From assembly GCA_001189345.1 (NCBI GenBank), contig LFKV01000002.1:1-64000 (forward strand): 64,000 bases of DNA. Reading direction: 5' to 3'. Below the pieces are notes generated by a model. It did no database searches. It saw nothing but the letters and a program-made list of their open reading frames with translations, and was not told the origin of the DNA. This DNA comes from Candidatus Paraburkholderia kirkii (GTDB lineage Bacteria; Pseudomonadota; Gammaproteobacteria; Burkholderiales; Burkholderiaceae). Shown here in pieces: positions 1-64,000 of this stretch (the stretch's first letter is position 1; each line of letters opens with the position of its first letter). Both the position numbers and the translations under genes were made by a program.

Positions 1-740
1 GCATGTGCCAGGCACGCAGCTTCCCGGATCTGACCACCGGCGTAGAGTTCCGCGTAGCCGGCAAACGCGTCAGCCTGCAGTACGCCCTTGAAGCTGGCAA
101 GGTGTCGCTGCGGATGTTCGCCGCGACGATCCGGTGTATCAGCGAACCAGACTGCTGGAGCCTCAGTCGAACCACTGGGCCAATCATCGCGCACATATAC
201 CCAGAGCCGCCCCGTCTTCGTCTTGCCATTGCCCGGCGCGAGCACTGGCAACGGCGTGTCGTCGGCGTGAACCTTGGTGCCACCGAGCGCATAGCGGCGC
301 ACTGCGTCCACCAGCGGATCGAGCAGCCATGTCTGGCTGCCCAGCCAGTGGCACATGGTGCCCGACTCAATCTCGACGCCATCGCGCGCGTACATGACAG
401 ATTGCCGATAGAGCGGGATGTGATAGGCAAACTTCGATGTCGCGATATGTGCGAGCAATGCAGGCCCAGGAAGGCCCCGGTCAATTGGACGACTCGGCGC
501 GGCAGCCTGCACGATGCAGTCACAGCACGAACAGGCGAGTTTGGATTCGAGCTGCTCGGATATGTCTTCGCCCAGTGGCTTGAGCGTGCCACCGCAGCCG
601 GGGCAACGTTCTTCGGCCGGACGGTGCATGCGCTCTTCGCGTTCCAGATGATTGCGACCGAACTGCATGCGACGCAACTTCGCGATCCTCAGCTTCAGAT
701 CATCGATGTCGTCGGGCAGGTCGCTACCGGTCAGATCCAT
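1..740 (-). pseudogene. tnpC: IS66 transposase TnpC (DDE), partial
   Basis: The frame is open from ATG at 740 to the window edge, about 246 codons. It shows the LRRMQFGR segment, a CPGCGG zinc-binding knuckle, the CDCIVQA linker, and then the transposase core with the acidic motifs VHADDTP and LQADAFAGY that belong to the DDE catalytic site. Compared with the usual IS66 protein, the stretch between MQFGR and REERMHRP and the stretch before KLACS look shorter. This suggests in-frame internal deletions, from memory of the family rather than an alignment. The C-terminal half including the last catalytic residue is outside the window. An in-frame TAA lies just upstream of the ATG. Confidence 0.7.
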
Positions 741-791
741 GGCAGCAGTTTACGACTGTCTGCTGCACGCGGATCATCAGGTAACTGACGT

Positions 792-1139
792 TTACAAAGC
801 GCTGCGCGGGCGTGCTGCCTCGATCGGTTCGCGCCAGTCAAACCCTTCGAGAAGCAGCGCCAGTTGAGCCGTTGTCAGCGCCACAACACCAGTGTCAGCA
901 CGTGGCCATGCAAAACGTCCTTTCTCAAGGCGCTTTGCAAACAGACATAGGCCGCCATCGCTCCAGTACAACGCCTTCATAAGGTCACCACGGCGCCCTC
1001 TGAAGATAAAAACCTGGCCACCGTACGGATCCTTCTCAAGCACTGTCTGCACCTTCGCTGCAAGCGCATTAAAGCCGGATCACATGTCAGTGACGCCTGC
1101 GGCGATCCAGATCCGCGTATTTGCAGGCAGGCCGATCAT
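792..1139 (-). pseudogene. tnpB: IS66 TnpB (Orf2), interrupted by a nonsense codon
   Basis: Reading from ATG at 1139 gives the usual TnpB start (MIGLPANTRIWIAAGVTDM), then TGA at 1082-1080, after which the family sequence resumes in the same frame (VQTVLEKDPYGG, FRGRRGDLMKALYW, LLEGFDWREP) to a stop at 792. The stop replaces an arginine in the usual TDMRSGFN motif, so it is a point nonsense mutation at codon 20. The start overlaps the restored tnpA stop as TGATG, the normal IS66 arrangement for translational coupling. TnpB is an accessory protein needed by many IS66 elements, so the element is probably immobile unless complemented. Confidence 0.85.
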
Positions 1140-1545
1140 CAGAGAAGCCGCTCGAGTACCAGGCGCAAGATCGTCGCGTCGGGCGTGCCTTCTATCCGGA
1201 CGGAAGTATTGCCGTGCTGAAGCTCAATCCTGCCGCTCGTAGTAACTGGAGCGGCCTGCACAACTTCGTCGAATCCGGCAGATGGTCAGTTGCCCGATCG
1301 GGCTGAACATCGACAACAACAGGCAACATGGCCTGCGTCTGAGCATCTTCGACCAGCAGGCCCTGCGCGTACAGTTTGCGCCACGCCCATACCTGGTTGG
1401 CATTGACGTTGTTGTCGCGGGCGACCCGAGCGACCGAGGCTCCTGGTTCAAATGTCTGCTCGACGACCGTTCGTTTCCATTCCAACGGATGCCGCCGGTT
1501 CTGGCGCTTGGCCGGCAATTCGACTGTCTGAGACACTGTGTCCAT
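1139..1545 (-). pseudogene. tnpA: IS66 TnpA (Orf1), frameshifted
   Basis: From ATG at 1545 the protein has the family helix-turn-helix region (RRHPLEWKRTVVEQT, VARVARDNNVNANQVWAWR). Near 1283 the frame is lost. The expected C-terminus (DEVVQAAPV, SGRIELQHGN, ILRLVLERLL) is found in the next frame and ends at TGA 1141-1139, overlapping the tnpB start. Without the shift the product ends in unrelated residues. TnpA is thought to be a DNA-binding helper of IS66 transposition. A TTG at 1575 would extend the frame by ten codons, but the ATG at 1545 fits the family better. Confidence 0.8.
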
Positions 1546-1645
1546 TCTCCGCAGTTCGTGGACACTGTCGGTCAATCGCGTCCGTTGCGGCTGATGATTG
1601 CATCTTCTACCTAGAACGAGACAACGGTACAGATCGAGCGCTTAC

Positions 1646-2470: not shown

Positions 2471-5400
2471 TCAACCGATCGTCATCAAATTCGCATTACC
2501 GCCCGCCGCCGCCGTGTTCACACTCACCGAGCGTTCGGTCAGCAGACGTTCGAGCGCGTAGTCCTCGCCGTCGTGGCCGGCGTCGGCGAACGCTCCCGCC
2601 GCCACGCCCTGCACCGACACGATCGGCCCCGGGCGCTTCGCGACTTCCTTCACGAGCGACAGCAGCTCATCGCTGTCGCCCTCGAACAGCACGGCGTCGA
2701 AATCTGCCGATACGTCCTTGGCGCCTTTCTTCACCGATACATATGCCTTGAGCGCGGCCAGCAACGATGCCGCCAGCTGCTCGCCCGCCGAGCCCGAGAA
2801 CAACGCGCGATTGCCCGTCGCGAGCACGGCGGCCAGCTGGGCGCGCGCGCCGCTGGCAGTGGCCGGCACGCACAGCACCGTGCCGCGCGCGCCGAGCGTG
2901 TACGTGTTGCGCTCGCCGGTCGGGCCCGAGAGCGCCGCCGTCGCGCCCGCCATCACGTGCTGCAGATAATCGTCGCAACGCGCGGCCGTCTGCGGATCGC
3001 GCTCGCCGATCGCCCAGTCGCGCAAGGCGGTGAGCGCCGCGGCCGGCGTGCCCTTCGCCGCCGCCTGATCGACCACGAGCGTGCTCGCGAGCGACTTCGG
3101 CAAGCCCGTCGGGCGCTTGGCCAGCAAGCGCTGCAGATACAGCGCGCCGCCCGCCTTCGGACCCGTGCCCGACAACCCTTCGCCGCCGAACGGCTGCACG
3201 CCGACCACCGCGCCGATCACGTTGCGGTTCACGTAGATGTTGCCCACGTGCGCCCGTGCGATCACATGCGCGATGGTTTCGTCGATGCGCGTATGGATGC
3301 CGAGCGTGAGGCCATAGCCGGTCGAGCGAATTTGGTCGAGGAGTTTCAAGATTCGCCCGGCGATAACGCACCACGTGCAGCACCGGGCCGAACACTTCGC
3401 GCTTCAGCTCGTCGATGCCGTCGAGCTCGATGAGTGTCGGCGGCACGAACGTGCCCTGCGCGCAGCTCTCCGGCAGCGGCAGCTGCACCACCTTGCGGCC
3501 TTTCTCGCGCATCGCGGCGATGTGCGCATCGATGCCGCGCTTCGCATCGGCGTCAATCACCGGGCCGACGTCGACCGAGAGGCGATCCGGATTGCCGACC
3601 GCCAGCTGGTTCATCGCGCCGGTGAGCATCTCGAGCGTGCGGTCGGCGATGTCGTCCTGCAGGCACAGCACGCGCAGCGCCGAGCAGCGCTGGCCCGCCG
3701 AATCGAACGACGACTGCAGCACGTCCGCCACCACCTGCTCCGCGAGCGCCGACGAATCGACGATCATCGCGTTCTGGCCGCCCGTTTCGGCGATCAGCGG
3801 AATCGGCCGGCCGTCCGGATCGAGGCGTTCGGAGAGCGTCTTGTTGATGAGGCGCGCCACTTCCGTCGAACCCGTGAACATCACGGCGCGCGTGCGCGGA
3901 TCGGGACGAGCGCCGCGCCCACGGTCTCGCCGTTGCCCGGCAGCAGTTGCACCGCGCCCGTCGGCACGCCCGCTTCGCGCAGGATGCGCACGGCTTGCGC
4001 GGCGATCAGCGGCGTCTGCTCGGCGGGCTTCGCGAGCACCGGATTGCCGGCCGCGAGCGCGGCGGCCACCTGGCCCATGAAGATCGCGAGCGGGAAATTC
4101 CACGGGCTGATGCACACTAACCGGACCGAGCGGGCGATGCGTATCGTTCGAGAACTCGCCGCGAATCTGCGCGGAGTAGTAGCGCAGGAAGTCGATGGCT
4201 TCGCGGATCTCGGCCACCGCGTTCGGCAGCGACTTGCCCGCTTCGCGCACGACGAGGCCCATCAACGTGTGCATCTGCGCCTCGAGCAGGTCGGCGGCGC
4301 GCGCGAGGCAATCCGCGCGATCCTCGACGGGCGTCGCCTGCCAGATCGGCGCGGCGGCGACCGCATTCGCGATCGCTGTGCTCACCTCTTCCGGCGACGC
4401 TTCCACCACCGTGCCGACGACATCGCGCAGATCCGACGGATTGCGGACCTCGCGCACGACGCCGCTGCCAAAGCTGCCGCCTTCGAGCATCGGTTCGGCG
4501 CGCCACGGATGATTCGCGCTCGCGAGCAGTGCCGACGACAGCGACGCCAGGCGATGCTCGTTCGACAGATCGAGGCCCATCGAGTTGGCACGCTCGTTGC
4601 CGTACAGATGGCGCGGCAGCAGAATCTTCGCGTGCGACGCGCCGAGCGGCACGATCTGCTGCGCTTCCTCGATCGGATCCTGCACGAGATCCTTCACCGG
4701 AATCGTTTCGTCGGCGATGCGGTTCACGAACGACGTGTTCGCCCCGTTCTCCAGCAGACGGCGCACGAGGTACGCGAGCAGCGTCTCGTGCGTGCCGACC
4801 GGCGCGTACACGCGGCACGGACGGTTCAGCTTGTCGCGGCCGGTGACTTCCTCATACAGCGGCTCGCCCATGCCGTGCAGGCACTGGAACTCGTACTGGC
4901 CGGGATAGTAGTTCTGACCCGCGAGGTGATAGATGGCCGAGAGCGTGTAGGCGTTGTGCGTCGCGAATTGCGGATAGACCGCATCGGGCGCCGCGAGCGG
5001 CTTCTTCGCGCACGCGAGGTACGAGATGTCCGTGTAGATCTTGCGCGTGTACACCGGATAGCCTTCGAGGCCGCCGACCTGCGCGCGCTTGATTTCCGTG
5101 TCCCAGTACGCGCCCTTCACGAGGCGGATCATCAGGCGATGGCGGCTGCGGCGCGCCAAATCGATCAGATAGTCGATCATGAACAGGCAGCGCTTCTGAT
5201 ACCCCTACATCACGAAGCCGATGCCGTTCCAGTCCGAGAGCTCCGGATCGAAGCACAGCGCTTCGAGCAGATCGAGCGACAATTCCAGACGGTCGGCTTC
5301 CTCGGCGTCGATGTTCAGGCCGATGTCATAGCGGCGCGCCAGTTGCGCGAGCGCGCGGCAGCAGCTCGTTCATCGTGCGTTCCTGCTGGGCGCGCGAGTA

Positions 5401-6422
5401 GCGCGGATGCAGCGCGGGGAGCTTGATCGAGATGCCCGGGCCTTCGTAGATGCCGCGCACGCCGCCGCCTTGCCGATCGCGTGGATCGCCTGCTCGTAGG
5501 AGGCGTAGTAGCGCTGCGCGTCTTCCTCGGTCGTCGCGGCTTCGCCGAGCATGTCGTAGGAGTAGCGGAAACCGCGCGCCTCGTACTTGCCGGCTGTTCG
5601 CGAGCGCCTCGGAAATCGTCTCGCCGGTGACGAACTGCTCGCCCATCAGGCGCATCGCCATGTCCACCACGCCCTTGCGGATCAGCGGCTCGCCGCCACG
5701 GCCGATCAGGCGCGTGAGCGCGGAGGAAAGGCCCACTTCGCTGTTCGTCGTCACCAGCTTGCCGGTAATCATCAAACCCCAAGTCGCCGCGTTCACGAAC
5801 AGCGACGGCGCCTGGCCCATGTGCGATTTCCAGTCGCCCTTGCTGATCTTGTCGCGGATCAGCGCATCGCGCGTGGCGCGGTCGCGCATCGCGCGTGGCG
5901 CGGTCGGGAATACGCAGCAGCGCCTCGGCGAGGCACATCAGCGCGACGCCTTCCTGGCTGGAGAGAGAACTCGTGGATCAGCCCTTCGACGCCGCCGCCC
6001 GTGTGCTTCGCGCGCAGCGCTTCGACAAGCCGGGTCGCGAGCTTCTCCGTCTCGGCCGCGACCGTCGCGGGCAGGCGCGCCTGCCCGATCAGGAACGGCA
6101 CGCACTCCGGCTCGGGGCGGCGATAGGCGGCGGTGGTCGCGGCGCGCAGCATCGATTGCGGCTGCACGTTCTGCGCGAAGTCGAGGAAGGGATGCGGGGC
6201 ACCGTCTTCGTCGTTGTCCACGGAAGCGGCATCCGCCAGCTCGGACGAGCCGTTCGCGCCCGTCAGTTCGGGCGAAAGCTGACCGTGTTCGATGCGCTCG
6301 AGGTAAGCGAAGATCGCCTCCTTGATCAGCCAGTGAGGAGTGCGCTCGAGACGCGTCGCGGCATCCTTGAGCCGGGAACGCAGCAAATCGTCGACTTTGA
6401 CGCCTAGGGTTGTGCTCGCCAT
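2471..6422 (-). pseudogene. putA: Trifunctional proline utilization protein PutA, multiply disrupted
   Basis: PutA oxidises proline to glutamate through proline dehydrogenase and P5C dehydrogenase and, in this long form, represses its own operon through an N-terminal ribbon-helix-helix. All parts are recognisable: RHH (TTLGVKVDDLLRSRLKDAA, TPHWLIKEAIFAYLE) after ATG 6422, the PRODH barrel (EGPGISIKLPALHPRYS, RLMIRLVKGAYWD), the aldehyde dehydrogenase (AETGGQNAMIVDSSA, FDSAGQRCSALRV) and the C-terminal ENANLMTIG-like end at 2471. The length of about 1317 codons is normal, but the frame is broken at about 5968 (loss of 2 in a TC run), 5862-5905 (22-bp tandem duplication), about 5600, about 5460, about 5350, about 4120, about 3905 and about 3349. 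A TAG replaces a glutamine codon at 5207-5205. Adjacent priA and hemE are clean, which argues against uniformly poor sequence. Confidence 0.92.
5862..5905. repeat. Perfect 22-bp tandem duplication inside putA
   Basis: The bases 5862-5883 are repeated exactly at 5884-5905. In protein terms the duplication repeats the DRATRDA segment of PutA and, because 22 is not a multiple of three, shifts the frame. It is a slippage- or recombination-type event rather than a base-call error. Confidence 0.95.
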
Positions 6423-6942: not shown

Positions 6943-9195
6943 TCACACGTCCTGCGGATCGACTTCCACGCTCCAACGCAGCACGCCCTTAAGCGAACGC
7001 AGTACCGGCTGCCACGCGCGCAGCGACGCCTGGAGCGCAGCCCGCGAGGCGCTTTCCAGCAGCAGTTGCGCCCGGTGCACGTTGAACACCTTCACGATGG
7101 TGAACGGCACCGCGTCGTAGACCGTCACGCGGTCCGCGCCGGGCAAGGATCCGAACGCCGCCGCCGCCCCTTCCAGAAACGCCAGCGCCGCTTCCAGCGT
7201 GCGGCCTTCGGCGCGCAGCATCGCCTGATAGACGAAGGGGGGCAGACGCGCGTCGCGCCGTTCGGCGAGCGTCGCGTTGGCGAAGCCGACGTAGTCCTGC
7301 CACGTCAGCGCCTGAAACAGCGCGTGGCGCGGATAGCGCGTCTGAATCATCACTTCGCCGGGCAATCCGGCACGCCCGGCGCGTCCGCTGACTTGTGTCA
7401 GTTGCACGAAGAGGCGTTCGCCCGCGCGGAAGTCGTGCGAGAAGAGCGCGGTATCCGCATTGAGCACGCCGACGAGCGTCACGCGCCGGAAGTCGTGGCC
7501 CTTGGCGATCATCTGAGTGCCGACGAGGATGTCGACTTCGCCCGCGTGCACATCGGAAAAGAGCGCCTGCGCGCTGCCCTTGCGGCGCGTGCTGTCGGCA
7601 TCGATGCGCAGCACCCGCGCGCCCGGCACCACGCTGGCGAGCGTTTCCTCGACGCGCTGCGTGCCGCGGCCCATCGGCGCGATATCGATGTTGCCGCAGT
7701 CCGGACACGACTTCGGAATGCGCGCTTCCCAGCCGCAGTGATGGCAGCGCAGCGCGCGCTCGGGCTTGTACAGCACGGCGTACGCGCTGCAGCGCGGGCA
7801 GCCGGCGACCCAGCCGCACGCGTCGCACGAAAGGATCGGCGCATAGCCCCGCCGGTTCAGGAACACGAGGCTCTGCTCGCCGCGCTCGAGGCGCGTCTTC
7901 AAGGCGGCGATGAGCGGCCCCGCCAGCCCTTCGACCCATGCGCGGCCGCGCCGCCTTTCCTCTTCGAGGTCGATGAGCTTGACGCTCGGCAACGCCGCTT
8001 CGGCAACGGCGCGGCGCGTGAGCGTCAGGCGCGTGTAGCGGCCTTGCTCCGCCTGCCACCAGGTTTCGAGCGAGGGCGTCGCCGATCCGAGCACGACGGG
8101 AATGTCGAGTTGCTTCGCGCGATAGATCGCCAGATCGCGCGCGGAGTAGCGCAAGCCTTCCTGCTGCTTGTAGGCGGGATCGTGCTCCTCATCGACGACG
8201 ATGATCGCGAGCCGGGGCATCGACGCGAGAATCGCGAGGCGCGTGCCGAGCACGATGCGCGCGCTTCCCGTATGCGCCGCAAGCCAGTTGCGCGCTCGCT
8301 CGCCTTCGGCGAGGCCGCTGTGCATCGTGACGATCGACCCTTCGGCCAAGGCCGCGAACCGCGCGCGAAAGGCGGCCTCGAATTGCGGTGTCAGGTTGAT
8401 TTCGGGCACGAAAACGAGTGCTTGCGCATCGGGACGCACGGCGAGCAGTTCGGCCAGCGCGTGCAGATACACCTCGGTCTTGCCACTGCCCGTCACGCCG
8501 TGCAGCAGGAACGGCGCGAAGCCTTCCGCGCCCGAGATGGCTTCGACGGCGTCGCGCTGTTCGTCCGTCAGCACGGGCAGCGCCGCGGAACCTGCCGGCG
8601 CGACGCGCATTTGCGCGGGTTCAGCCGCGGCGCCGTCACTCGACTCCGCGAGCTCGATCCAGCCGCGCGCCAGCCAGTCCTCGAAAGTTGCGCTTGCCTT
8701 GGGATGCAGCGCACGGGCGTCGGACATGCCGAGCGACGGCTGCTCGGCAAGCGCATCCGCCAGGCGGCGCAAGGCGCTCGCACGTGAGGGCAGCGCGCCG
8801 GGCAGTTGCGCGCGGCCTGCCGGCAAGAGCCGGTAGCGTTCGTCGACCGCGAAAAGACGATTCCACCGCGATGCGTCGCGCAATGCCTGAGGCAGCGCCG
8901 GCAACGCGACTTCACCCAGGCCGCGCTGATAATAATCGGCGGCGAAACCGGCAAGCGCGATCCATGCGTCGGACAGCGGCGCGCAGGCAGAACAGATGGC
9001 GCTGACGTTGCGCAGCTTGTCGGCGGGCACGTCGCTCGTCGCGATGACTTCGCAGATCAGTCCCACCACCTCGCGCCGTCCGAACGGAACCAGCACGAGC
9101 GAGCCGGCGGCGGGCGGCTCGGGCAACGCATAGCGGTAATCGAACAGCACGGGCATCGGCTGATCGACGGCCACCCGGACGAAAACGTCCGTCAT
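6943..9195 (-). CDS. priA: Primosomal protein N' (replication restart helicase PriA)
   Basis: PriA reloads the replisome at collapsed forks. The 750-residue protein from ATG 9195 (MTDVFVRVAV) has the N-terminal DNA-binding region (PMPVLFDYRYALPE, LVPFGRREVVG). Its helicase core shows Walker A GVTGSGKTEVYL near residue 240 and the DEEH box (VVDEEHDPAYKQQEGLRYS). Eight cysteines form the zinc module (CDACGW, CPRCS, CHHCGW, CPDCG), and conserved C-terminal helicase motifs follow (GTQMIAKGHDF, QVSGRAGRAG). The reading frame could start five codons earlier, but MTDVFVRVAV fits the family. Gene intact. It is preceded by a 436-bp gap containing DnaA-box-like sequences. Confidence 0.97.
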   Translation of the reverse strand: MTDVFVRVAVDQPMPVLFDYRYALPEPPAAGSLVLVPFGRREVVGLICEVIATSDVPADKLRNVSAICSACAPLSDAWIALAGFAADYYQRGLGEVALPALPQALRDASRWNRLFAVDERYRLLPAGRAQLPGALPSRASALRRLADALAEQPSLGMSDARALHPKASATFEDWLARGWIELAESSDGAAAEPAQMRVAPAGSAALPVLTDEQRDAVEAISGAEGFAPFLLHGVTGSGKTEVYLHALAELLAVRPDAQALVFVPEINLTPQFEAAFRARFAALAEGSIVTMHSGLAEGERARNWLAAHTGSARIVLGTRLAILASMPRLAIIVVDEEHDPAYKQQEGLRYSARDLAIYRAKQLDIPVVLGSATPSLETWWQAEQGRYTRLTLTRRAVAEAALPSVKLIDLEEERRRGRAWVEGLAGPLIAALKTRLERGEQSLVFLNRRGYAPILSCDACGWVAGCPRCSAYAVLYKPERALRCHHCGWEARIPKSCPDCGNIDIAPMGRGTQRVEETLASVVPGARVLRIDADSTRRKGSAQALFSDVHAGEVDILVGTQMIAKGHDFRRVTLVGVLNADTALFSHDFRAGERLFVQLTQVSGRAGRAGLPGEVMIQTRYPRHALFQALTWQDYVGFANATLAERRDARLPPFVYQAMLRAEGRTLEAALAFLEGAAAAFGSLPGADRVTVYDAVPFTIVKVFNVHRAQLLLESASRAALQASLRAWQPVLRSLKGVLRWSVEVDPQDV

Positions 9196-9631
9196 CGTGC
9201 GCAACTCCACGCACGGAGGCTCGATACGAGGGCGCGGCTCGGCCGGGCGAAGTTAAAGTAAAACATCAGAAACGCCGATAAACCGCAGATTATTTTTGGA
9301 TTTCCGCTGCTTTCCACAGGTCTGTGGATAACTTTGTTGAGAAGTCCCGCCGGGGTTGCCGCAAACAATGACAGGAATCCCTTATGTGCGTTTGCCCACA
9401 TTTCGGGTAAAACTGCCGAATTTCGTTAAAAATCATTCACTTACACAGCACATAGAGATCTGTTATTGGTTGCGGCGTGCCATATGTCTGATGGCGCGCC
9501 GCAGCGAACAAAATGTGCATAAGTACGGTCTTGACATCGCACGCGGCCGCGTAAGGCGGGCGATCCCGACGAAATCCTCAAGACGCTGGCGCTCCGGTCC
9601 GGCGCCTCGATACTGCGTTGCAACATGCCTC
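9196..9631. other. Intergenic region hemE-priA with DnaA-box-like sites
   Basis: This is an A/T-richer interval upstream of priA and downstream of hemE. It contains TGTGGATAA at 9323-9331 (exact reverse complement of the TTATCCACA DnaA box) and a facing TTTCCACA at 9311-9318. Together these give 7-bp arms 9313-9319 and 9322-9328. A weaker TGTGCATAA lies at 9514-9522. No open frame here looks like a gene. It probably includes the priA promoter. Confidence 0.5.
9471..9503 (-). terminator. Strong hairpin downstream of hemE (terminator or mRNA 3' end)
   Basis: Arms 9471-9482 and 9492-9503 pair over 12 bp with a single G-T wobble and a 9-nt loop. It lies about 130 bp after the hemE stop on the same strand. 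There is no T-run after it, so it is not a canonical intrinsic terminator. It could mark an mRNA end or block read-through into priA. Confidence 0.4.
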
Positions 9632-10750
9632 TCATTGCCGGATTCGGTGCGCATTCAGCGCGCGGCCTGCCCCGCGCATCGCCCGGCTGTGGCGATGCAC
9701 TTCGTCCACGAACTCAGCGACGTGCTCCGGGGGCGTGAATTGCGAGATGCCGTGGCCGAGATTGAAGACATGGCCCGGAAAATTCCCGAAGCTTTCCAGC
9801 ACCGCGCGCGCTTCGGTTCGGATCGTCGCGGGCGGCGCGAACAGCACGCTCGGGTCGATGTTCCCTTGCAGCGCCACGCGCGACCCGACCTTCTCGCGCG
9901 CGATGCCCAGATTCATGGTCCAGTCGAGACCGACCGCATCGACGCCCGTCGTCGCGATCTCTTCGAGCCATAGGCCACCGCCTTTCGTGAACGTGATGAC
10001 CGGCACCCGCGCGCCATCGTGCTCGCGCTTAAGACTCGCCACGACCTTCGCGACGTAATCGAGCGAGAAGCGCTGATACGCGCCGTCGGCGAGCGCGCCG
10101 CCCCAGGTATCGAAGATCATCACGGCCTGCGCGCCCGCTTCGATCTGCGCGTTCAGGTACGCGGTCACGGCTTGCGCATTGACCTCGAGAATGCGGTGCA
10201 TCAGATCGGGCCGGGCATAAGCCATCGACTTGACCGTGCGGTGGTCGTCCGAGCCACCGCCCTCGACCATGTAGCACGCGAGCGTCCACGGACTGCCGGA
10301 GAAGCCGATCAGCGGCACCTTCTGACGGCCTTGTTCATCGGTGAGCGCGCGGCGAATCTGGCTGACGGCGTCGGTGACGTAGCGCAGCGTCGCGTCGATA
10401 TCCGGCGCGGCGAGGCGTTTCACGTCGTCCTCCGTGCACACGGTGCGCTCGAAGCGCGGACCCTCGCCCTGCACGAAATGCAGGCCGAGTCCCATCGCGT
10501 CCGGCACGGTGAGGATGTCCGAGAAGAGGATCGCGGCGTCGAGCGGAAAGCGTTCGAGCGGCTGAAGCGTCACTTCGGTCGCGTAGTCGGGGTTCTTCGC
10601 CAGGCCGAGGAAGCTGCCCGCGCGCGCGCGCGTGGCGTTGTACTCAGGCAAGTAGCGGCCAGCCTGGCGCATCAGCCAGATCGGCGTGTAGTCGGTCGGC
10701 TGGCGCAGGAGCGCGCGCAGGAAGGTGTCGTTCAGGAGAGTGTGTGCCAC
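9632..10750 (-). CDS. hemE: Uroporphyrinogen decarboxylase
   Basis: HemE converts uroporphyrinogen III to coproporphyrinogen III in haem synthesis. The family signature [15 protein letters not shown] is near the N-terminus, followed by [45 protein letters not shown] and the C-terminal [16 protein letters not shown]. The gene is intact. I chose GTG at 10750, giving [10 protein letters not shown] and 372 residues, because this matches the usual start. An upstream ATG at 10783 would add eleven residues ([11 protein letters not shown]) that the family lacks. It is transcribed toward priA, but the long gap makes an operon uncertain. Confidence 0.96.
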
Positions 10751-10929
10751 GTCGCTCGATGCTGAAGGCAAAGAATCTTCCATTCTACCGGACCGGCCCC
10801 GCGTTTTCGTTGACTGAGCCCGGCAATTCGGGGAGTCTCATGCAGCGCGGCCTATGCCGTTTGGCCGAGTGTTCAGATACCCGGCGGCCTCGTTATGATC
10901 GACGGGCGTACACAACTAGAACCAGGAGA

Positions 10930-15519: not shown

Positions 15520-15595
15520 TTATGTCGACTCCAAGTGAGTGTAGTGCGTGAACGCCAGCGCGCCGCGCTGACGTCCGCTTCGATACACCCGACCT

Positions 15596-17017
<1,422 letters not shown>

Positions 17018-17028
17018 TCACGCGGCCA

Positions 17029-17913: not shown

Positions 17914-17974
17914 TGCTGACTCCTTGATCGAAGCCGCGCGGCGCTTAGGCACCGCGCGTTGCCTCTAGTCCCGA

Positions 17975-19516
<1,542 letters not shown>

Positions 19517-19574
19517 TATTCGCTCCTGATAGTCAATTCTGTTGCGTGCCAGCCATGAGACACGGGGTGGCCGC

Positions 19575-50530: not shown

Positions 50531-50606
50531 CCGATGAGGCCTGTCCGCTTCATCGGGCGGACGGAAAGCACCGGAGAAAGATCGCCGCGCGAGCCGGGTG
50601 GCGCGC

Positions 50607-52141: not shown

Positions 52142-52142
52142 C

Positions 52143-53342: not shown

Positions 53343-53345
53343 GCC

Positions 53346-54240: not shown

Positions 54241-55046
54241 CACGCCTGGAACGACAGTGCGCGCTCGATCGCGCGGCCCGCAAGCACCGGAATCAGATGC
54301 GCGCGATAGACCGCACTGGCGTGCATGTCGTCGTTGAGCTCGTCGGGCAGGATCGTCACGCTGCGCGCCGACGCGACCGAAAAGTCATTCGACAACGCCG
54401 CCTCGAGTTCCGCCGGACGAAACACGGAAGACGCCGCGCCCGTCACGCCAACGCGCACGCCGTCCCTGAACTTCGCGACGAACACGCCGACGAGCGTGAA
54501 GTGCGACGCGGGATTGCGAAACTTCTCGTAGCCCGCGCCCTCGGCCAGCGGAAATTCGACGGCGGTGATCAGTTCGTCGGGTTCGAGCGCCGTCTGATAC
54601 ATGTCGATGAAGAAATCGTCCGCCGCGATGCGCCTTCTATCCGTCACGACCGTCACGTTCAGCGCGAGCACGGCGGCGGGATAGCATGCCGCCGGATCGT
54701 CGTTGGCAAGCGAGCCGCCGACCGTCCCGCGCTCGCGCACCTGCCTGTCGCCGATGTGGCCCGCGAGGTCCGCGAGACCCGGCAGCGCCTGCTTCACGTC
54801 CGCGTTCGCGGCGACGTCCACGTGGCACACTGCGCCGCCGATGGTCAGCTTGTCGCCCTCGAGCGCGACGGTCTTCATCGCGGCGATGCGCGTCACGTCG
54901 ACGAGCGCGGAGGGCTGCGCGAAACGCAGGCGCATCGTCGGCAGGAGGCTCTGGCCGCCCGCGAGATACTTGGCCTTGCCGTTGGCGGACAGCGCCGCGA
55001 CCGCCGCCTTGGCTTCGCCGGGCCGTTGATAGTCGAATGTGTACAT
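54240..55046 (-). CDS. coxM: FAD-binding medium subunit of a molybdenum hydroxylase (CoxM-like)
   Basis: The 268-residue protein begins [19 protein letters not shown] after a GGGAGAG ribosome site. It has [37 protein letters not shown] (FAD-binding loops), [16 protein letters not shown] and the C-terminal CO-dehydrogenase-flavoprotein domain. It carries electrons from the small subunit's FeS clusters to acceptors. Intact, unlike its large-subunit partner. Confidence 0.92.
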
Positions 55047-55057
55047 GGCCGCTCTCC

Positions 55058-57434
55058 CTATGCGTGTTGGGCGTTGTGCATCGCGGTCCATACGCGGTGC
55101 GGCGTCGCGGGCATCTGCAAGTCCTTCACGCCGAGCGGCGCGAGCGCATCGAGGATCGCGTTGATGACAGCGGGCGGCGAGCCGATGGCGCCCGCCTCGC
55201 CGCAGCCCTTCACGCCGAGTGGATTGTGCGTGCACGGCGTGCCCTTCGCAGTCTCCACCGTGAAGCTCGGCAAGTCGATGGCGTGCGGCATCGCGTAATC
55301 CATGAACGAGCCGAAAAGCAGCTGGCCGGTGCTGTCGTCGTAGACGCAGCGTTTGAGCATCGCCTGGCCGATGCCCTGCCCCAGCCCGCCGTGCACCTGT
55401 CCTTCGACGATCATCGGATTGATCACGTTGCCGAAATCGTCGACGGCGGTGAACTTCTCGATGCGCGTCTCGCCCGTGTCCGGATCGACTTCGACCTCGC
55501 ACACATACGCGCCCGACGGATACGTGAAATTGGCCGGATCGTAGAACGCGTTTTCGTTGAGGCCCGGCTCCATCTGATCGAGCGGGAAGTTGTGCGGCAC
55601 GTAGGCGGCGAGCGATACGTCGACGAAAGTCTTGGTGCGGTCCGTGCCCGCGACGCGGAACACACCGTTCTTGAACTCGATGTCCTCCGCCGCCGCTTCG
55701 AGCAGATGCGCGGCGATCTTCTTCGCCTTCGCTTCGACCTTGTCGAGCGCCTTCATGATCGCCGAGCCGCCGACCGAGATCGAACGCGAGCCGTACGTGC
55801 CCATGCCGAACGGAATGCGTCAGGTATCGCCGTAAATGATCTCGACGTTCTCGATCGGGACGCCGAGCCCGGTCCGCGACGACTTGCGCGAAGGTCGTCT
55901 CGTGCCCCCTGACCATGGCTGTGCAAACCGGTAAAACACGGTGACCGAGCCGGTCGGATGCACGCGCACCTCGCCCGCTTCGAACAAGCCCGCGCGCGCC
56001 CAGCACGCCCGCGACGTTCGACGGCGCGAGCCCGCACGCCTCGATGTAGCACGAATGGCCGAGGCCGCGCAGCTTGCCCCTCTGCTTCGATGCTTCCCGG
56101 CGCGCGGCGAAGCCCTTCACGTCGGCAAGCTCCAGCGCGCGATCGAGGCAGGCGTCGTAATCGCCGGTGCCGTAGGTGAGGCCAACCGGCGTCGCGTACG
56201 GAAACTCGCGGATGAAATTGCGGCGGCACAACTCGACCGGATCGATGTTCAGCTCGCGCGCCGCCGTTTCGACCAGACGCTCGACGACGTACGTCGCTTC
56301 GGAGCGGCCCGCGCCGCGATAGGCATCGACGGGCACCGTGTTCGTGAACACCGCTTTCACTTCGGCATAGATCGCGGGCGTCGTGTACTGGCCGGCGAGG
56401 AGCGTCGCGTAGAGCACGGTCGGAATCGACGATGCGAACGTCGACAGATACGCGCCCATGTTCGCCGTCGTGTGCACGCGCATGCCGATGAACTTGCCGT
56501 CCTTGTCGAGCGCGAGCTCGGCCTTCGTGACGTGGTCGCGGCCCTGTGCGCGTCGGAGAGAAACGCTTCGGAGCGCTCAGCGGTCCATTTGATCGGCCGC
56601 CCTACTTTCTTCGATGCCCACGTCAGCGCGACGTCTTCCGGATACAGGAAAATCTTCGAGCCGAAGCCGCCACCCACGTCCGGCGCGATCACGCGCAGCT
56701 TCGATTCCGGCAGCGACAGCACGAACGCCGCCATCAGCAGGCGCTCGACGTGCGGGTTCTGATTCGCAACATAGACAGTATAGCTGTCGTCGTGCTTCGA
56801 ATAGCTCGCGTTCACGGCGCGCGGCTCGATCGCGTTCGGCACGAGCCGCTGATTCACGATGTCGAGCGTCGTTACGTGCGCGGCCTGCGCGAACGCGGCA
56901 TCGGTCCTGGCCTTGTCGCCGTGGCCCCAGTTGAAGCAGACGTTGTTCGGCACGCTGTCGTGCACGAGCGGCTGGCCGGCAATCCGATGCGCTCGCCGTA
57001 TCGACCACGGCGGACAGCACGTCGTAATCGACCTCGATGAGCTCGGCGGCATCCTTCACCGATTCGGCGACGACGAGCGCGACCTGATCGCCCACGTGCA
57101 GCACCTTGTTGTGCGCGATGACGAGATGCGACGGCTCGTGCATCGGCGAGCCGTCGATGCTGTGAATGAGCCAGCCGCACGGCAGGCCGCCGACATTCTC
57201 GCCCGCCATGTCACGTCCGGTAAAGATGCCGATCACGCCCGGCGACGCCTTCGCCGCTTCGATGTCGATGCTCTTGATCTTCGCGTGCGCGTGCGGCGAG
57301 CGCAGGAACACGCCATGGCTTTGCTGCGGCAGAACGATGTCGTCCGTGTACTGGCCCGCGCCCGTCAGGAAGCGATAGTCTTCCTTGCGCTTGACGCCGG
57401 CGCCGATCAATTTCTGCTGCTCAGGGGTATTCAT
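55058..57434 (-). pseudogene. coxL: Molybdopterin-binding large subunit, form II CO dehydrogenase-like, broken
   Basis: ATG 57434 begins MNTPEQQKLIGAGVKRKEDYRFL. Readable parts include GAGQYTDDIVLPQQSHGVFLRSPHAHA, APDVGGGFGSKIFLYPEDVAL and [17 protein letters not shown]. The AYRGAGR loop is the form II (putative CO dehydrogenase) version, as opposed to AYRCSFR of form I. Frame slips occur near 57000, 56550, 56010, 55910 and 55870, and TGA at 55822-55820 interrupts the last third. That part continues to TAG 55058 ([33 protein letters not shown]). The active-site loop and the cofactor-binding part cannot be made as one protein. Confidence 0.92.
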
Positions 57435-57496
57435 CGCGGTCTCCTGTATCGGCGCGATTCATCTGGGAGAGGTGGGATTGCGCGGCGCGGATGACG

Positions 57497-57976
57497 TCAC
57501 GCGCCGGCTTTTTTCATGGCTTGCGCGCCCTGCAGGACCGCTTTCACGATGTTGTGATAGCCGGTACAGCGGCAGAGATTGCCGTCGAGCTGCTCGCGCA
57601 CGGTTTCCTCGGAGAGATCGGCCGATTGCGCGACCAGCGCGCTCGCACACATCACCATGCCCGGCGTACAGAAGCCGCACTGCAAGCCGTGGCATTCTCT
57701 GAAGGCCGCCTGCATCGGATGAAGCTGGCCGTCTTTCGCCATGCCTTCGATGGTCGTCACGTCCATGCCGTCCGCCTGCGCGGCGAGCACGTTGCACGAG
57801 TCGATCGCGCGGCCGTCGAGATGAACGGTGCAGGCGCCGCACTGCGCGGTATCGCAGCCGACGTGCGTGCCGGTGAGCCTGAGTTGATCGCGGAGAAACT
57901 GGACGAGCAGAAGATGCGGTTCGACGGTGGCGGTCACGGGTTTTCCGTTGACCGTCAGGCTGATGCTGAGCGCCAT
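57497..57976 (-). CDS. coxS: 2Fe-2S small subunit of a molybdenum hydroxylase (CoxS-like)
   Basis: ATG 57976 with AGGAGA upstream gives 159 residues. The plant-type cluster cysteines are in [20 protein letters not shown], and the second cluster in [15 protein letters not shown] and [18 protein letters not shown]. All eight cysteines are present. First gene of the cox-type cluster, 62 bp before coxL. Intact. Confidence 0.94.
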
Positions 57977-58220: not shown

Positions 58221-59660
58221 TCAGTTCGTGACGGTTTCGCGCGTCGCGGAGCCGGCGCGCGAGACTTCGGCACCCGGCCGGCCGAGCAGCGCGTGCCGGC
58301 GCGAATACAGGAAGTAGATCGCGAGGCCGATCACGAGCCACACGCCGAACGCGATCCACGTCATCGCCTGCAGATTGGCCATCAGGAAAAGGCACGACGC
58401 GACCGCCAGAACCGACACGACGGGCACGCCCGGGCAGCGGAACGCGCGCGGCAGGTCCGGATGCATGCGGCGCAGGATCAGCACGGCGATGGACACCATC
58501 GAGAACGCCGCGAGGGTGCCGATGTTGATCAGCTCGGCGAGCACGTTGAGCGGAACGAGCGCGCCGATCAGCCCGAAGAAGATGCCGACGAGCCAGGTCG
58601 TGAAGAAGGGCGTCGAGAAACGCGGATGCACCTTCGAGAGCTTCGCGGGCAGGAGGCCGTCGCGCGACATCGCGTAGATGATGCGCGTCTGGCCGTAGCT
58701 CATCACGAGAATCACGGTGAGCATGCCGAGCACGGCGCCGAGATCGATGAAGCCCGCCACCCAGTTCTGGCCGGCGACTTGCAGCGCGAACGAGACCGGA
58801 TGCGGATTGTTCGCGAATTGCGCCGACGGCACGATGTCCGTCACGACCGCCGCGACCGCCGCGACCGCCACGTACAGCACCGCGCACACCGCCAGCGACG
58901 AGATGATGCCGATCGGCAGATCGCGCTTCGGATTCTTCACTTCCTCCGCCGCCGACGACACCGAATCGAAGCCGATGAACGCGAAGAACATCACCGCCGC
59001 GGCGCCGAACACGCCGGACCAGCCGTTCGGCATGAACGACTGCCAGTTCGCCGGCTTGACGTGGAACACGCCCACGGCGATCACCAGCACGACGGTCACC
59101 TCCATGATGTTGTTCACGCGCGTGGATTCCTTCACGCCGAGGGAGAGCAGCGCGGTGATCGCCATCATCACGAGAAAAGCGGGCAGGTTGAAATACGTGA
59201 GATGGCCGGGCAGGGCGCCGGGCGCGGCCGTGAGTGCGGTCGGCAGCGAAATGCCGAAGCCGGACAGCAGGGATTGCAGGTAGCCCGACCAGCCGACCGA
59301 CACGGCGGACGTCGCGAGCCCGTACTCGAGCATCAGATCCCAGCCGATGATCCATGCGGCCAGCTCGCCGAGCGTCGCGTACGAATAGGTATAGATGGAG
59401 CCGGCGACGGGAATCGTCGACGAGAACTCTGCGTAGGCGAGGGCGGCGAAGCAGCATGCGATCGCCGCGACGATGAACGAGATCATGAGCGCCGGGCCGG
59501 CCTGCACGGCGCCCGTCCCGGTGAGCACGAAAATCCCCGTGCCGACGATGGCCCCGATGCCGAGGAAAGTCAGATCGAGGGCGCCGAGCGTCTTCTTGAG
59601 CGACGTGCTGTGCGCACTGGCCAGCATGTGCTCGATGTTTTTCTTGCGGAACAACGACAT
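58221..59660 (-). CDS. APC-superfamily amino acid permease (cationic amino acid transporter-like)
   Basis: The 479-residue protein (MSLFRKKNIEHMLASAH) has about twelve hydrophobic segments. It has the APC motif LGIGAIVGTGIFVLTGTGAVQAGPA early and FFAFIGFDSVSSAAEEVKNPKRDLPIGI in the middle, typical of YfnA/CAT-type permeases. Substrate not determined. Intact. Confidence 0.9.
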   Translation of the reverse strand: MSLFRKKNIEHMLASAHSTSLKKTLGALDLTFLGIGAIVGTGIFVLTGTGAVQAGPALMISFIVAAIACCFAALAYAEFSSTIPVAGSIYTYSYATLGELAAWIIGWDLMLEYGLATSAVSVGWSGYLQSLLSGFGISLPTALTAAPGALPGHLTYFNLPAFLVMMAITALLSLGVKESTRVNNIMEVTVVLVIAVGVFHVKPANWQSFMPNGWSGVFGAAAVMFFAFIGFDSVSSAAEEVKNPKRDLPIGIISSLAVCAVLYVAVAAVAAVVTDIVPSAQFANNPHPVSFALQVAGQNWVAGFIDLGAVLGMLTVILVMSYGQTRIIYAMSRDGLLPAKLSKVHPRFSTPFFTTWLVGIFFGLIGALVPLNVLAELINIGTLAAFSMVSIAVLILRRMHPDLPRAFRCPGVPVVSVLAVASCLFLMANLQAMTWIAFGVWLVIGLAIYFLYSRRHALLGRPGAEVSRAGSATRETVTN

Positions 59661-59818: not shown

Positions 59819-60443
59819 TCAACCGGCGATGACCGGATTCATGTCGATGAGCCGGTTGCTCATCACACATAGAACCTGAGCTCCGCGTTATTGGCCAGCT
59901 TCATCTTCTCCAACAACCGTGCGCGATAAACGCTCACCGTTTTCACGGAAGCCAGCATGCACAGCGTCTGATATTCGCGGTCCGAGAGCTTCTCGTGCGG
60001 CATGCGCTCGGTGTCGAGCGAAACGTAGGTCGCGAGCGCTTCGGCCATCTCCGGGCTCACGTACTTCCGGCCCGCCGCGACCTGCTGGATCGCGCCGATC
60101 CGATCATGAGGGCGGGGTCGGCCATCTTCGACAGATAGCCCGAAGCGCCCGCCTTCAGCGCGCGCACCGCGTACTGATCCTCGCGATACATCGAGAACAT
60201 CAGCACCGGCAGGCGCGGCGTCTCGCGCTTGATGCGCTTGAGCAGATCGATTCCGTTGACATCCGGCAGCGAGATATCGAGCATCACGACGTCGAGCGGC
60301 CGTCGCGCGGCGAGCGCGAGCGCCTGCATGCCGGTCTCGGCCTCCGACTCCGATACTTCGGTGGCGATGCCGCGTTCCAGCAGCAGTTGCGCGACGCCGC
60401 GGCGCACGATGGCGTGATCGTCCGCGAGCAAGATCTTGAGCAT
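59819..60443 (-). pseudogene. NarL/FixJ-type response regulator, frameshifted and with HTH deletion
   Basis: ATG 60443 begins MLKILLADDHAIVRRGVAQLL with phospho-acceptor region VVMLDISLPDVNGIDLLKRI, SMYREDQYAVRALKAGASGYLSK. Near 60095 the frame slips. The output domain then reads EKLSDREYQTLCMLAS joined directly to VKTVSVYRARLLEKM. About fourteen residues of the LuxR-type HTH (the usual GKT...AERL..S part) are missing. Another small slip near 59865 displaces the tail MSNRLIDMNPVIAG. With receiver and DNA-binding parts separated and the HTH truncated, the regulator should not bind DNA. Confidence 0.88.
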
Positions 60444-60454
60444 CGCGGGCAACC

Positions 60455-61309
60455 TCAGGCGTAGACCACGCTGAGCGCGAACAGCCCGGGACGCGCCACC
60501 GTCCATGGCAGGCGAGCGCGCACGCTGGTTCCGGCGGGCTTCGCCGCGACGATGCGCAGGCTGCCGCCGAGCGCCTCGCAGCGCGCGCATGCTGGAAAGG
60601 CCGAAGCGGCCGCGCTGATGCCGATGCCGTCGTCCTCGACGGACAGCATCACGCCGTCCCGGTCGAGGTCGATTTTCACGCTCGCACTCGCCGCGCCGGC
60701 GTGACGCGCGATGTTGCCGAGCGCCTCCTGCATCACGCGAAGGAGCGCGAGCGACATGTCGCGCGACAGGCGTTCCAGCCGCGCATCGGTCGGGCAGGAA
60801 AAATCGACGGGAATCACGGTGCGCGCACGGAAGCGCTCGATCCACGCGTCGAGCGCGGACGCGAGACCGGCGTCAAGGGCCGGCGCCTGCAGCCCTTCGA
60901 CGATGCGATGGCTCGTCTCGCTGACATCCGCCGGGGCTTCGCGCGCCTGGCGCAGCGCATCGCCGAGCGCGGCAGGCGCGTCGGCGGGCAGCCAGTGTGC
61001 GGCGCGCGCGAGCGCCAGATTGGCGACCGTGAGCGCGGCGCCGGTTTCGTCGTGGAGATCCCGGGCGAGCGCCTGGCGTGCTCGCTCCTCGGTCGCGGCG
61101 AGCAGCGCGGCCAGTTCCTGGATGCGGGCGGTGAGACGCTGGATCTGGCGATCGCCCTCGAGCTTCGCGTCGATCAGCGCGGAATGGGGCGAAACGGAAG
61201 GAAGGGCAAAAGACGAACCGGCACATTCCGGCGCCGGCGACGAAACCCCGCGCAGCGATGCGCGGCGAATCGGGCTCTCATCGAGCGTGACCATGGCCGA
61301 CAGGTTCAT
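60455..61309 (-). pseudogene. NarX-type sensor histidine kinase with out-of-frame G2 box
   Basis: The 284-residue soluble kinase (HPK7 type) shows the phospho-acceptor ALARDLHDETGAALT, N box EALGNIARHAGA, and G1 VEDDGIGIS. There the frame slips and slips back: the expected GRFGLSSMR box is read as AAASAFPACA before RCEALGGSLRIVAA resumes. Total length is preserved but the nucleotide-lid motif is lost, so ATP binding is probably impaired. No N-terminal membrane helices are seen, so the sensor may be cytosolic. It partners the adjacent regulator; 11 bp separate them. Confidence 0.72.
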
Positions 61310-61632: not shown

Positions 61633-61658
61633 GTTTTCCTGAACGTGGGGCTTGCCGA

Positions 61659-62429
61659 TCAGCCGACGAAAGCCTTTTCGACGACATAATGGCCAGGATG
61701 GTTGTTGCTGCCTTCCTGAAAGCCCATTGCGTCGAGCAACTGACGCGTGTCGCGCAGCATATGCGGGCTGCCGCAGAGCATCACGCGATCGTTCTCGACC
61801 GAGAACGGCTCCACCGAAAGGTCCGCGAACAGCTTCTTCGTCTCGATCAGATCGGTGATGCGGCCACGGTTCGCGAACTCCTCGCGCGTGACGGTCGGAT
61901 AGTAGACGAGCTTCTCGGAGACGATCTCGCCGATGTGCTCGTGCGCCGGCAAGTGCTCCGTGATGAAGTCCTTGTACGCGAGTTCGTCGACGAAGCGGCA
62001 GGTATGCGTCAGCACGATCTTCTCGTAGCGGTCGTACACGTCCGGGTCCTTGATGATCGACATGAACGGCGCGAGACCCGTGCCCGTGGAGAGCAGCCAC
62101 AGCGTCTTGCCGGGCAGCAGGTTGTCGGCGACGAGCGTGCCCGTCGGCTTCTTGCCGATCAGCACGGAATCGCCGACTTTCAGGTGCTGCAGACGCGAGG
62201 TGAGCGGGCCGTCCGGAACCTTGATGCTCAAAAATTCGAGATACTCTTCGTAGTTCGCGCTCGCGAGACTGTAGGCGCGCAGAAGCGGCTTGCCGTCGAC
62301 TTCGAGGCCCACCATCGCGAACTGGCCGTTTTCGAAGCGAAACGCGGAGTCGCGGGTGCAGGTGAAACTGAAAAGCGTGTCGGTCCAGTGATGGACGCTC
62401 AGAACGGTTTGAGAATTAAGGTTGCTCAT
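61659..62429 (-). CDS. fpr: Ferredoxin-NADP(+) reductase
   Basis: The 256-residue flavoenzyme shows the FAD motif LLRAYSLASANYEEYLEF, LTSRLQHLKVGDSVLIG and the NADPH-binding LLSTGTGLAPFMSII. VMLCGSPHMLRDTRQLL and the C-terminal EKAFVG end follow. It shuttles electrons between NADPH and ferredoxin or flavodoxin, important in oxidative stress and FeS biogenesis. Intact and followed by a strong terminator. Confidence 0.96.
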   Translation of the reverse strand: MSNLNSQTVLSVHHWTDTLFSFTCTRDSAFRFENGQFAMVGLEVDGKPLLRAYSLASANYEEYLEFLSIKVPDGPLTSRLQHLKVGDSVLIGKKPTGTLVADNLLPGKTLWLLSTGTGLAPFMSIIKDPDVYDRYEKIVLTHTCRFVDELAYKDFITEHLPAHEHIGEIVSEKLVYYPTVTREEFANRGRITDLIETKKLFADLSVEPFSVENDRVMLCGSPHMLRDTRQLLDAMGFQEGSNNHPGHYVVEKAFVG

Positions 62430-62928
62430 GGCTTCTTATTCTTAAACTGTGCGAAAGCGGTGCCACTCCGACACTCGCGGCTGACTTGCGGGCAACCCTG
62501 CCACGCGGCCAGGCCCGACTCCGCGATGAGAGCGCGCTACGAAGGCGCTGCGCGAAAGGGCGATCGAACGTGACGAACGGCCGCGTGTTCGATGCGAAGG
62601 CAGCAATTCACGCCGCGCCTTGCGTGAACGTCGCGCGAAAAACCAGACAGCCCGGCGCAATCGACTATTTTAACCCGATAGCCGGTCGGCATCGTCGAGC
62701 GCCGCGCAAGAGGCTGTCGCGGCAAAGGCGCGCACGCGGCCTCGTGGGCGAACGTGCGCTGAAACGAAGCGCTTTCGGCTGGCAACAAATTGCTGGCTAT
62801 AGACAGACAGCATTCCGGCGCCGATCGCAATCGCTGCCGAAAAACCGGCGAGCCACCATCATAACAACGGATGCCGCGCTATCCCGAAATACCCTTTCTG
62901 GCGAAAGGCTTGCGCGCGGCCGGACGCC
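62430..62928. other. Intergenic region, aldo/keto reductase to fpr
   Basis: About 500 bp contain no gene I can support, only unconvincing short frames. An A/T-rich stretch before 62429 is probably the fpr promoter. The rest may be a decayed gene beyond recognition. Confidence 0.5.
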
Positions 62929-63972
62929 TCAGATGCGCTGATCGGTGGACGGCTTCTCCCACAGGTTGACGCCGCCTTCCTGCGCGTGCTGATCGATTTC
63001 CGCGAGCTCTTCCTTCGTAAACTCTAGGTTCTTCAGCGCGCCGACGTTTTCCGCGACCTGTTCCGCGCGGCTCGCCCCGATCAGCACGGAGGTCACGCGT
63101 CCCCCGCGCAGCGCCCAGGCGAGTGCCATCTGCGCGAGGCTCTGGCCGCGCTTCTGCGCGAGTTCGTTGAGCTTGCGTACGTGTGCGAGATTTGCCTCGC
63201 TCAAATGCTCCTGCTTGAGCGAAGCGCCGCCCGGCTTGTTTACGCGCGCGTCCTGCGGCACGCCGTTCAGGTATTTGTTCGTCAGAAGCCCCTGGGCGAG
63301 CGGCGTGAACGCGATGCTGCCCGCGCCGATATCGTCGAGCGTGTCGAGCAGGTCCTTTTCGATCCAGCGGTTCAGCATGTTGTACGAAGGCTGATGGATC
63401 AGCAGCGGCACCTTGTGCTCGGCGAGCAGCTTCGCCATTTCGCACGTTTTCGCCGCCGAGTATGACGAAATGCCCACGTAGAGCGCCTTGCCGGAATGCA
63501 CGGCGGTCGCGAGCGCGCCGGCGGTTTCCTCGAGCGGCGTGTCGGCATCGAAACGGTGCGAGTAGAAGATGTCGACGTACTCGAGGCCCATGCGCTTCAA
63601 GCTCTGGTCGAGGCTCGCGAGCACGTACTTGCGCGAGCCGCCGCCCTGGCCGTACGGGCCGGGCCACATGTCCCAGCCGGCCTTCGACGAAATCAGCAGC
63701 TCGTCGCGATACGGCTGGAAGTCGTCCTTGAAGATGCGCCCGAAATTCGTCTCGGCGCTGCCGTACGGCGGGCCGTAGTTGTTCGCGAGATCGAAATGCG
63801 TGATGCCGAGATCGAACGCGGTGCGCAGGATCTCGCGTTGCGTAGAGATCGGCGTCGTGTCGCCGAAGTTGTGCCACAAGCCCAGCGACACCGCGGGCAA
63901 TTTCAACCCGCTCCTGCCGCAGGTGCGGTATTGCATCTGCGTGTATCGCTCGGACGCTGCTTCGTAGGCCAT
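62929..63972 (-). CDS. Aldo/keto reductase (YghZ/MgrA-like)
   Basis: The 347-residue TIM-barrel protein has the catalytic tetrad region: Asp/Tyr in FDLANNYGPPYGSAE, Lys in LLISSKAGWDMWPGP, His in IFYSHRFDADTPLEE. NADPH is bound by VLIGASRAEQVAEN near the end. The GPYG(Q)GGSRKY insert matches the YghZ (L-glyceraldehyde-3-phosphate reductase) branch, often in methylglyoxal detoxification. Intact; the start MAYEAASERYTQMQYR is at 63972. Confidence 0.93.
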   Translation of the reverse strand: MAYEAASERYTQMQYRTCGRSGLKLPAVSLGLWHNFGDTTPISTQREILRTAFDLGITHFDLANNYGPPYGSAETNFGRIFKDDFQPYRDELLISSKAGWDMWPGPYGQGGGSRKYVLASLDQSLKRMGLEYVDIFYSHRFDADTPLEETAGALATAVHSGKALYVGISSYSAAKTCEMAKLLAEHKVPLLIHQPSYNMLNRWIEKDLLDTLDDIGAGSIAFTPLAQGLLTNKYLNGVPQDARVNKPGGASLKQEHLSEANLAHVRKLNELAQKRGQSLAQMALAWALRGGRVTSVLIGASRAEQVAENVGALKNLEFTKEELAEIDQHAQEGGVNLWEKPSTDQRI

Positions 63973-64000
63973 GACGGAATTCCTCTGCGGATTGCGAATT

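Follow-up and report, generated by a model that had tools for sequence, protein, structure and literature searches.

Candidatus Burkholderia kirkii and other leaf-nodule symbionts of Rubiaceae are reportedly the subject of work by Carlier and Eberl in 2012 and by Pinto-Carbo in 2016. The part of the published record available to us describes massive genome erosion in Psychotria leaf-nodule Burkholderia, places EEVS on plasmid pKIR01 (140 kb) of Ca. Burkholderia kirkii, and reports that cyclitol genes are pseudogenised in several leaf-nodule symbionts (PMC8599487). Here we describe gene decay in a 64,000-nucleotide stretch, called the window, which makes up the first 64 kb of the 91-kb contig C2 in a 3.91 Mb draft genome (48 contigs, 97% complete). 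Its lesions spare every gene of an essential type. We conclude with high confidence that the window belongs to the chromosome of a Caballeronia that became host-restricted recently, most likely as a leaf-nodule symbiont of Rubiaceae.

The genus was confirmed as Caballeronia by sequence comparison. The PriA protein shares 90% identity with that of Caballeronia pedi and 86-88% with those of C. grimmiae, C. catudaia and C. arvi. The nearest of 57 other genomes of the genus, G069, is 93% identical in DNA across the 4.4 kb surrounding parAB-rsmG-mnmG, and the next is 87% identical. Genomes in the genus are mostly 6-10 Mb, and eight further ones are small, at 2.4-4.2 Mb (G003, G025, G034, G035, G061, G074, G075 and G079). 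The genes broken in the window are open in G069. As is typical of a young host-restricted genome, the one studied here is much smaller than its close un-reduced relative (3.91 vs 7.7 Mb).

Genes were called on G069 from codon usage together with the third-codon-position pattern of its differences with other relatives, and were then traced into the window. The codon-position pattern was added to the score when calls from codon usage alone were rejected for yielding long antisense open reading frames (ORFs). Gene names come from NCBIfam and Pfam matches, with broken genes named via the copies of relatives. Several family matches score under the curated cut-offs, and names based on these should be read as "X-like". 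Sixty loci were traced. Twenty-one carry a frameshift, nonsense codon or truncation, one livH-like gene is cut by an inversion, and one gene of 207 aa is deleted, for a total of 23/60. The automatic pipeline counted 22 broken and 2 partial genes of 59. Its broken flags on mnmG and on a kinase gene (48614-49612), at nt 0 and nt 9, were dismissed as start-codon effects, and both genes are intact. With start-edge flags excluded, the same pipeline found 0/58 broken in G001 and 0/58 in G011, both of them full-size relatives; with them included, the counts were 1/59 and 0/59. Over the first block of the window alone, 1/23 genes was flagged in G036 and 1/23 in G005, both due to mutually cancelling indel pairs 20-30 bases apart.

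A list of 18 essential-type genes was set by function, by us, once the lesions were known. On the minus strand it includes priA (6943-9210), hemE (9632-10783), the nine genes of the atp operon (15094-22474), parB and parA (24003-25730), rsmG and mnmG (25808-28434), gmhA (34508-35095) and fpr (61659-62429). The remaining member, rsmI (35628-36548), is on the plus strand. None of the 18 is broken, compared to 23 of the 42 other loci (one-sided Fisher p = 1.9e-5). If the 60 lesions are placed randomly by length, the probability that all of them miss the essential-type genes is 2.6e-10. In 20,000 draws of 21 genes by length, no draw missed every essential-type gene. The lesions are also clustered, since the 60 events fall in 21 genes with 34 expected by length, and their density is about 2.7 per kb of broken gene (60 in 22.6 kb). 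Between 3% and 93% of the frame, the essential-type genes (16.5 kb) have no uncompensated frameshift. Three window-branch indels are listed for them, a compensating pair and one at the start of mnmG. The intact hemE gene has an altered C-terminal end and, in its last codons, an indel that is ambiguous as to its branch of origin.

A preliminary description of the window had counted more than twenty broken genes, had listed the core genes that were clean, and had argued that random sequencing error would not spare essential genes so consistently. All three points hold, and the equal lesion rate in essential genes that it had put forward as contrary evidence is not seen in the window. Its ten frames of the atp operon became nine genes. 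Eight of these are subunits named by NCBIfam. For atpI, the name was taken via the weaker match of the G001 copy (the relative's own match is 2e-12); the window's 119-aa frame has no NCBIfam match at 1e-20, a limit stricter than that match. A lesion assigned to atpI in an early pass was rejected, as it lies upstream of the relative's conserved AtpI domain and the G069 gene, which is shorter, has an intact counterpart in the window.

Selection was compared between lineages by assigning each substitution to the branch of the window or that of G069, using G001 as outgroup and excluding codons beside indels. On the window branch, the nonsynonymous:synonymous (N:S) ratio was 0.109 for essential-type genes, 0.187 for other intact genes and 0.186 for broken genes. 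The G069 values were 0.060, 0.092 and 0.094. The window branch is therefore raised 1.82x (95% bootstrap 1.28-2.45) in essential-type, 2.03x (1.45-2.98) in other intact and 1.97x (1.47-2.69) in broken genes. Selection looks weaker on the window branch across all three gene sets, and the 1.82x and 2.03x values indicate the relaxed selection on remaining intact genes that is associated with symbionts. This branch-specific analysis superseded an initial ratio of nonsynonymous to synonymous substitution rates (dN/dS) against the more distant G001, which was 0.095 for intact and 0.108 for broken genes in the window, and 0.087 and 0.088 in G011.

The same ratios bear on the age of the breaks. If neutrality explains the entire rise from 0.094 to 0.186 in broken genes, they would have been neutral for roughly 10% of the branch or less, or about 15% at the upper bootstrap limit of 0.232. 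With the other intact genes as baseline, the neutral time would be close to none. The broken genes evolve like the other intact ones, and the breaks in the window therefore look young. Cryptic pseudogenes may be present among the other intact genes. In Sodalis pierantonius SOPE, dN/dS likewise failed to reveal cryptic pseudogenes, according to the part of that report available to us (PMC3499248).

The window opens at the contig start with an insertion element (1-1640, minus strand) that we take to be IS66-like. It contains an HTH_Tnp_1 transposase ORF (1192-1575, Pfam) and a second frame with stops (784-1152). Beside it, a branched-chain amino acid ABC binding protein gene (1642-2369, minus) is truncated and frameshifted. 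Among the matches listed, the element has 56 segments at 97-100% identity in this genome, nine of them nearly full length, and only one match, at 66% identity, in G069. The search scored 40 of 148 candidates here and 40 of 92 in G069. Several copies lie at contig starts. For this one element, the genome has the expansion of insertion elements known from a SOPE-type young symbiont.

Two blocks of the window match its relatives, 1662-31165 in collinear order and 31173-64000 inverted. G001 and G011 have the alternative arrangement in common, with an additional stretch of about 44 kb in G011. Because these two genomes agree, an inversion of about 100 kb probably occurred on the window's lineage, with its breakpoint at 31165/31173 cutting a permease gene, of which a livH-type remnant is left (31137-31173, minus). 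In G069 the two blocks are on separate contigs and are uninformative on the inversion. Inspection by eye of 480 bases at the junction revealed no insertion element, and the 1-1640 element also has no copy there among the matches listed.

Evidence on the host comes from another contig, C43 (74.9 kb, 56.4% GC), which may be a plasmid. Four DHQ-synthase-family matches were found in the genome. The two on C43 are of a lower-scoring type, which also occurs in G003, G015, G025, G066 and G079. Their score group, together with the neighbourhood of one of them, suggests that both are EEVS-type genes. One lies within a run of seven same-strand frames with Pfam matches, a cyclitol-type cluster in which its neighbours are an RmlD-like reductase, GT20, a class III aminotransferase, a dehydrogenase-like protein, an MFS protein and a nucleotidyl transferase. 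C43 also has transposase genes and a gene for a DUF3326 protein. The cluster had no match in a plasmid collection, which may omit its own record. The genome also has AroB-like matches, a full-length one on C5 and a second at C41:24275-24613 with a frame of only 189 aa. G069 also has two AroB-like genes, with frames of 367 and 381 aa.

Indels in a draft of 48 contigs could be errors of sequencing or assembly, and the failure of the window's broken genes to appear more relaxed than other intact genes would agree with this. Nevertheless, we consider this explanation very improbable. The 21 broken genes have 54 frameshifting window-branch indels, so they became pseudogenes mainly through small frameshifts. 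Only 4 of the 62 window-branch indels in broken genes are in homopolymers of at least 4, while 18 are at least 4 bp long, and these proportions make sequencing error unlikely; 13 of the 62 are classed as tandem-unit events. Six nonsense codons are spread over five broken genes. The listed copies of the insertion element are 97-100% identical, though assemblers can smooth repeats. Taken with the sparing of essential-type genes, the indel spectrum is strong but indirect evidence against error. A mutator, with lesions driven by a loss of mismatch repair and not by relaxed selection, would likewise fit many indels with little excess nonsynonymous change in broken genes. This also appears most unlikely. 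MutS and MutL, the two repair genes examined, have full-length frames, and essential-type genes carry no lesions inside the frame. Mismatch-repair-deficient Vibrio lines put most single-base indels in homopolymer runs, according to the available part of that study (PMC5854121), whereas few indels are in homopolymers here.

If the decay is real, the host could still be something other than a Rubiaceae leaf nodule, such as a fungus, an insect or another plant, and reduced-genome lineages related to Burkholderia are reported from fungi and insects. We judge such a host unlikely given the two EEVS-type genes on C43, one of them beside GT20, class III aminotransferase, nucleotidyl transferase and MFS genes. 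Plasmid-borne EEVS together with massive erosion is described for Psychotria leaf-nodule Burkholderia in the accessible part of PMC8599487. We therefore favor recent host restriction in a leaf nodule. The preliminary description had proposed a host-restricted, reductive Caballeronia, and the genus, the 3.91 Mb size, the expansion of an insertion element, the raised N:S ratio and the EEVS-type genes support it.

Restriction to a leaf nodule would account for the decay as follows. In the host setting, inherited genes for amino acid uptake and breakdown, other transport and sensing would no longer be needed, and mutations in them would no longer be purged by selection. Small indels, nonsense changes, a copy of an insertion element and one inversion would then break these genes, while genes for growth inside the host would be retained. 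A small effective population size could be the cause of the raised nonsynonymous rate. We infer host restriction, the leaf-nodule host and the small effective population size behind this rate from the genome.

Some of the observations in this and the next paragraph weigh against this reading, and others support it. Extra relaxation of the broken genes is not seen in the window (0.186 vs 0.187), and in a wider sample the pairwise ratio showed only a small excess, 0.156 (0.134-0.182) for broken vs 0.118 (0.105-0.131) for intact genes. The dN/dS comparison suggested in the preliminary description is thus borne out slightly in the wider sample and not at all in the window. The sample used ten anchor regions paired with G069, picked from positions in earlier searches, of which nine aligned. 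It counts only genes with at least 75% coverage; many genes of lower coverage lie past the ends of the paired stretches. The genome-wide pseudogene count that had also been suggested was done on this sample and supports the reading: 32 of 110 genes were broken and 78 intact, with 61 frameshifts and 5 nonsense codons in the 32. This is a redone count; a first pass (68 intact, 42 broken, 7 partial, 43 absent) had included nine alignable antisense ORFs (7 broken, 2 intact). Ten broken and ten intact genes were chosen non-randomly for naming. Matches were found for 7/10 of the broken genes, including hflC, leucyl aminopeptidase (pepA), isocitrate lyase, miaB and an EnvZ-like kinase, and for 9/10 of the intact genes, including enolase, hisZ, lnt, zapE and a CysN-type protein. 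The breaks outside the window therefore include three conserved but dispensable housekeeping genes, miaB, hflC and pepA. Because of them, the preliminary wording, core genes intact and accessory genes broken, is too strong genome-wide. What separates broken from intact genes seems to be whether the cell can spare them, rather than core vs accessory status. Gene families were also counted across the genome. LysR-type domains number 67 here, and G069, G001 and G011 each have at least 135. In the elongation-factor GTPase family, the rows C48:47550 and C48:48035 are two halves of one split gene, and the remaining rows have no stops. The ABC-domain family was dropped as a genome-wide control, as scoring in G069 covered only the best 150 of 280 candidates, which hides fragments.

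Other reduced genomes of the genus agree with the window only in part. In G074, 8/12 testable window-broken genes, 0/8 essential-type genes and 6/13 other window-intact genes were broken. Its overlap with the window-broken genes is not significant against the other intact genes (p = 0.43); against all window-intact genes, p = 0.066. In support of the reading, none of its essential-type genes is broken, and one lesion in its large oxidoreductase subunit matches a window lesion in both position and size. In G003, 3/5 window-broken, 1/15 essential-type and 1/2 other genes were broken, and the essential-type gene flagged was atpI. PutA is split in the window's genome, broken in G075 and short of its C-terminus in G074, and no match at 1e-60 was found in G061 or G034. 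It is full length in four other reduced genomes, G003, G025, G035 and G079, so loss of PutA is not a rule of this lifestyle. Breaks common to the window and other reduced genomes are only suggestive.

The preliminary description placed nearly all the broken genes in transport, catabolism, signalling or mobile elements, and many do belong there. On the minus strand, putA for proline catabolism (2471-6422) has 8 frameshift events and 1 nonsense codon, and an acyl-CoA ligase gene (13344-14776) has 4 frameshift events, with 83% of its length aligned. A livF-type ATPase gene and a livM-livG-type fusion share 28592-31132 (minus) and are both broken, the first by 3 frameshifts and the second by 3 frameshifts and 2 nonsense codons. 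Also broken are an amino acid ABC binding protein gene (10934-11772, plus), an MFS transporter gene (46734-47971, minus) and both genes of a response regulator and sensor kinase pair (59819-61294, minus). An MFS-type transporter gene with a weak family match (42609-43765, plus) has 7 frameshift events, 1 nonsense codon and 1 large in-frame deletion. Outside these categories, breaks occur in yraN (35222-35577, minus), an rlpA family gene (36612-37216, minus), the sap1 surface attachment gene (31515-31861, plus), a CREG/PNPOx-like gene (41789-42452, minus) and two small unnamed genes of 83 aa (33332-33583, minus) and 70 aa (48296-48507, plus). A small gene with weak similarity to the methylmalonyl-CoA epimerase type (32701-33085, minus) is broken as well. 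Conversely, several transport and catabolic genes, all on the minus strand, are intact: the BcaP-type amino acid permease (58221-59660), the CDF cation exporter (39721-40941), the CitMHS-type transporter (22863-23990, with a different start codon), a second branched-chain amino acid binding protein (43823-44998) and an esterase/lipase of the hormone-sensitive lipase type (11790-12749). The placement in these categories was only partly correct.

A molybdenum hydroxylase operon (50607-57434, minus) is partly decayed. Its xdhC-like gene, a 401-aa unnamed gene (near the C-terminus), a madB-like ATPase gene and the large subunit are broken, and the coxG-like gene and medium subunit are intact. The small subunit of the same oxidoreductase (57497-57976, minus) is also intact. 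Within 50607-57976, the medium and small subunits still have open frames, in contrast to the broken large subunit and helper genes. The operon is next to the site (50531-50606) of the deleted 207-aa gene, which is present in G069. The remaining features are yaeQ (32146-32697, plus) and an aldo/keto reductase gene (62929-63972, minus), both intact, and a tRNA-Ala (CGC) gene (33196-33271, minus).

PMC8599487, as far as its available part goes, already describes massive erosion in leaf-nodule Burkholderia, and the present result confirms that picture. Like Candidatus Burkholderia kirkii and the Rubiaceae leaf-nodule symbionts described there, the genome is of a Caballeronia-type lineage, is eroded and has EEVS-type cyclitol genes on what may be an accessory element. 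It differs in that C43 is 74.9 kb in this draft, compared to the 140 kb of pKIR01. With an eroding symbiont and its un-reduced sister about 93% identical, one could measure directly in what order, how fast and how convergently genes are lost in a plant symbiosis. The available parts of PMC3499248 and PMC3914690 describe similar pairs, Sodalis pierantonius SOPE and Sodalis glossinidius vs strain HS, in which a young host-restricted genome can be set against a closely related intact one. In both systems, frameshifts by small indels are the most frequent lesion and selection is relaxed on intact genes, and insertion elements have expanded here as in SOPE. Disrupting mutations per kb are estimated at 2 in SOPE and 4.39 in S. 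glossinidius and are about 2.7 here, with different denominators. The hosts of Sodalis are insects, unlike the probable plant host here. Sodalis also belongs to a different bacterial class. It is possible, though we propose it tentatively and would not lean towards it, that this genome and G069 are the plant-symbiont counterpart of the Sodalis HS/SOPE pair, with about half of the genome lost in an early burst, broken genes neutral for at most 10-15% of the branch, and many open genes perhaps already free of selection.

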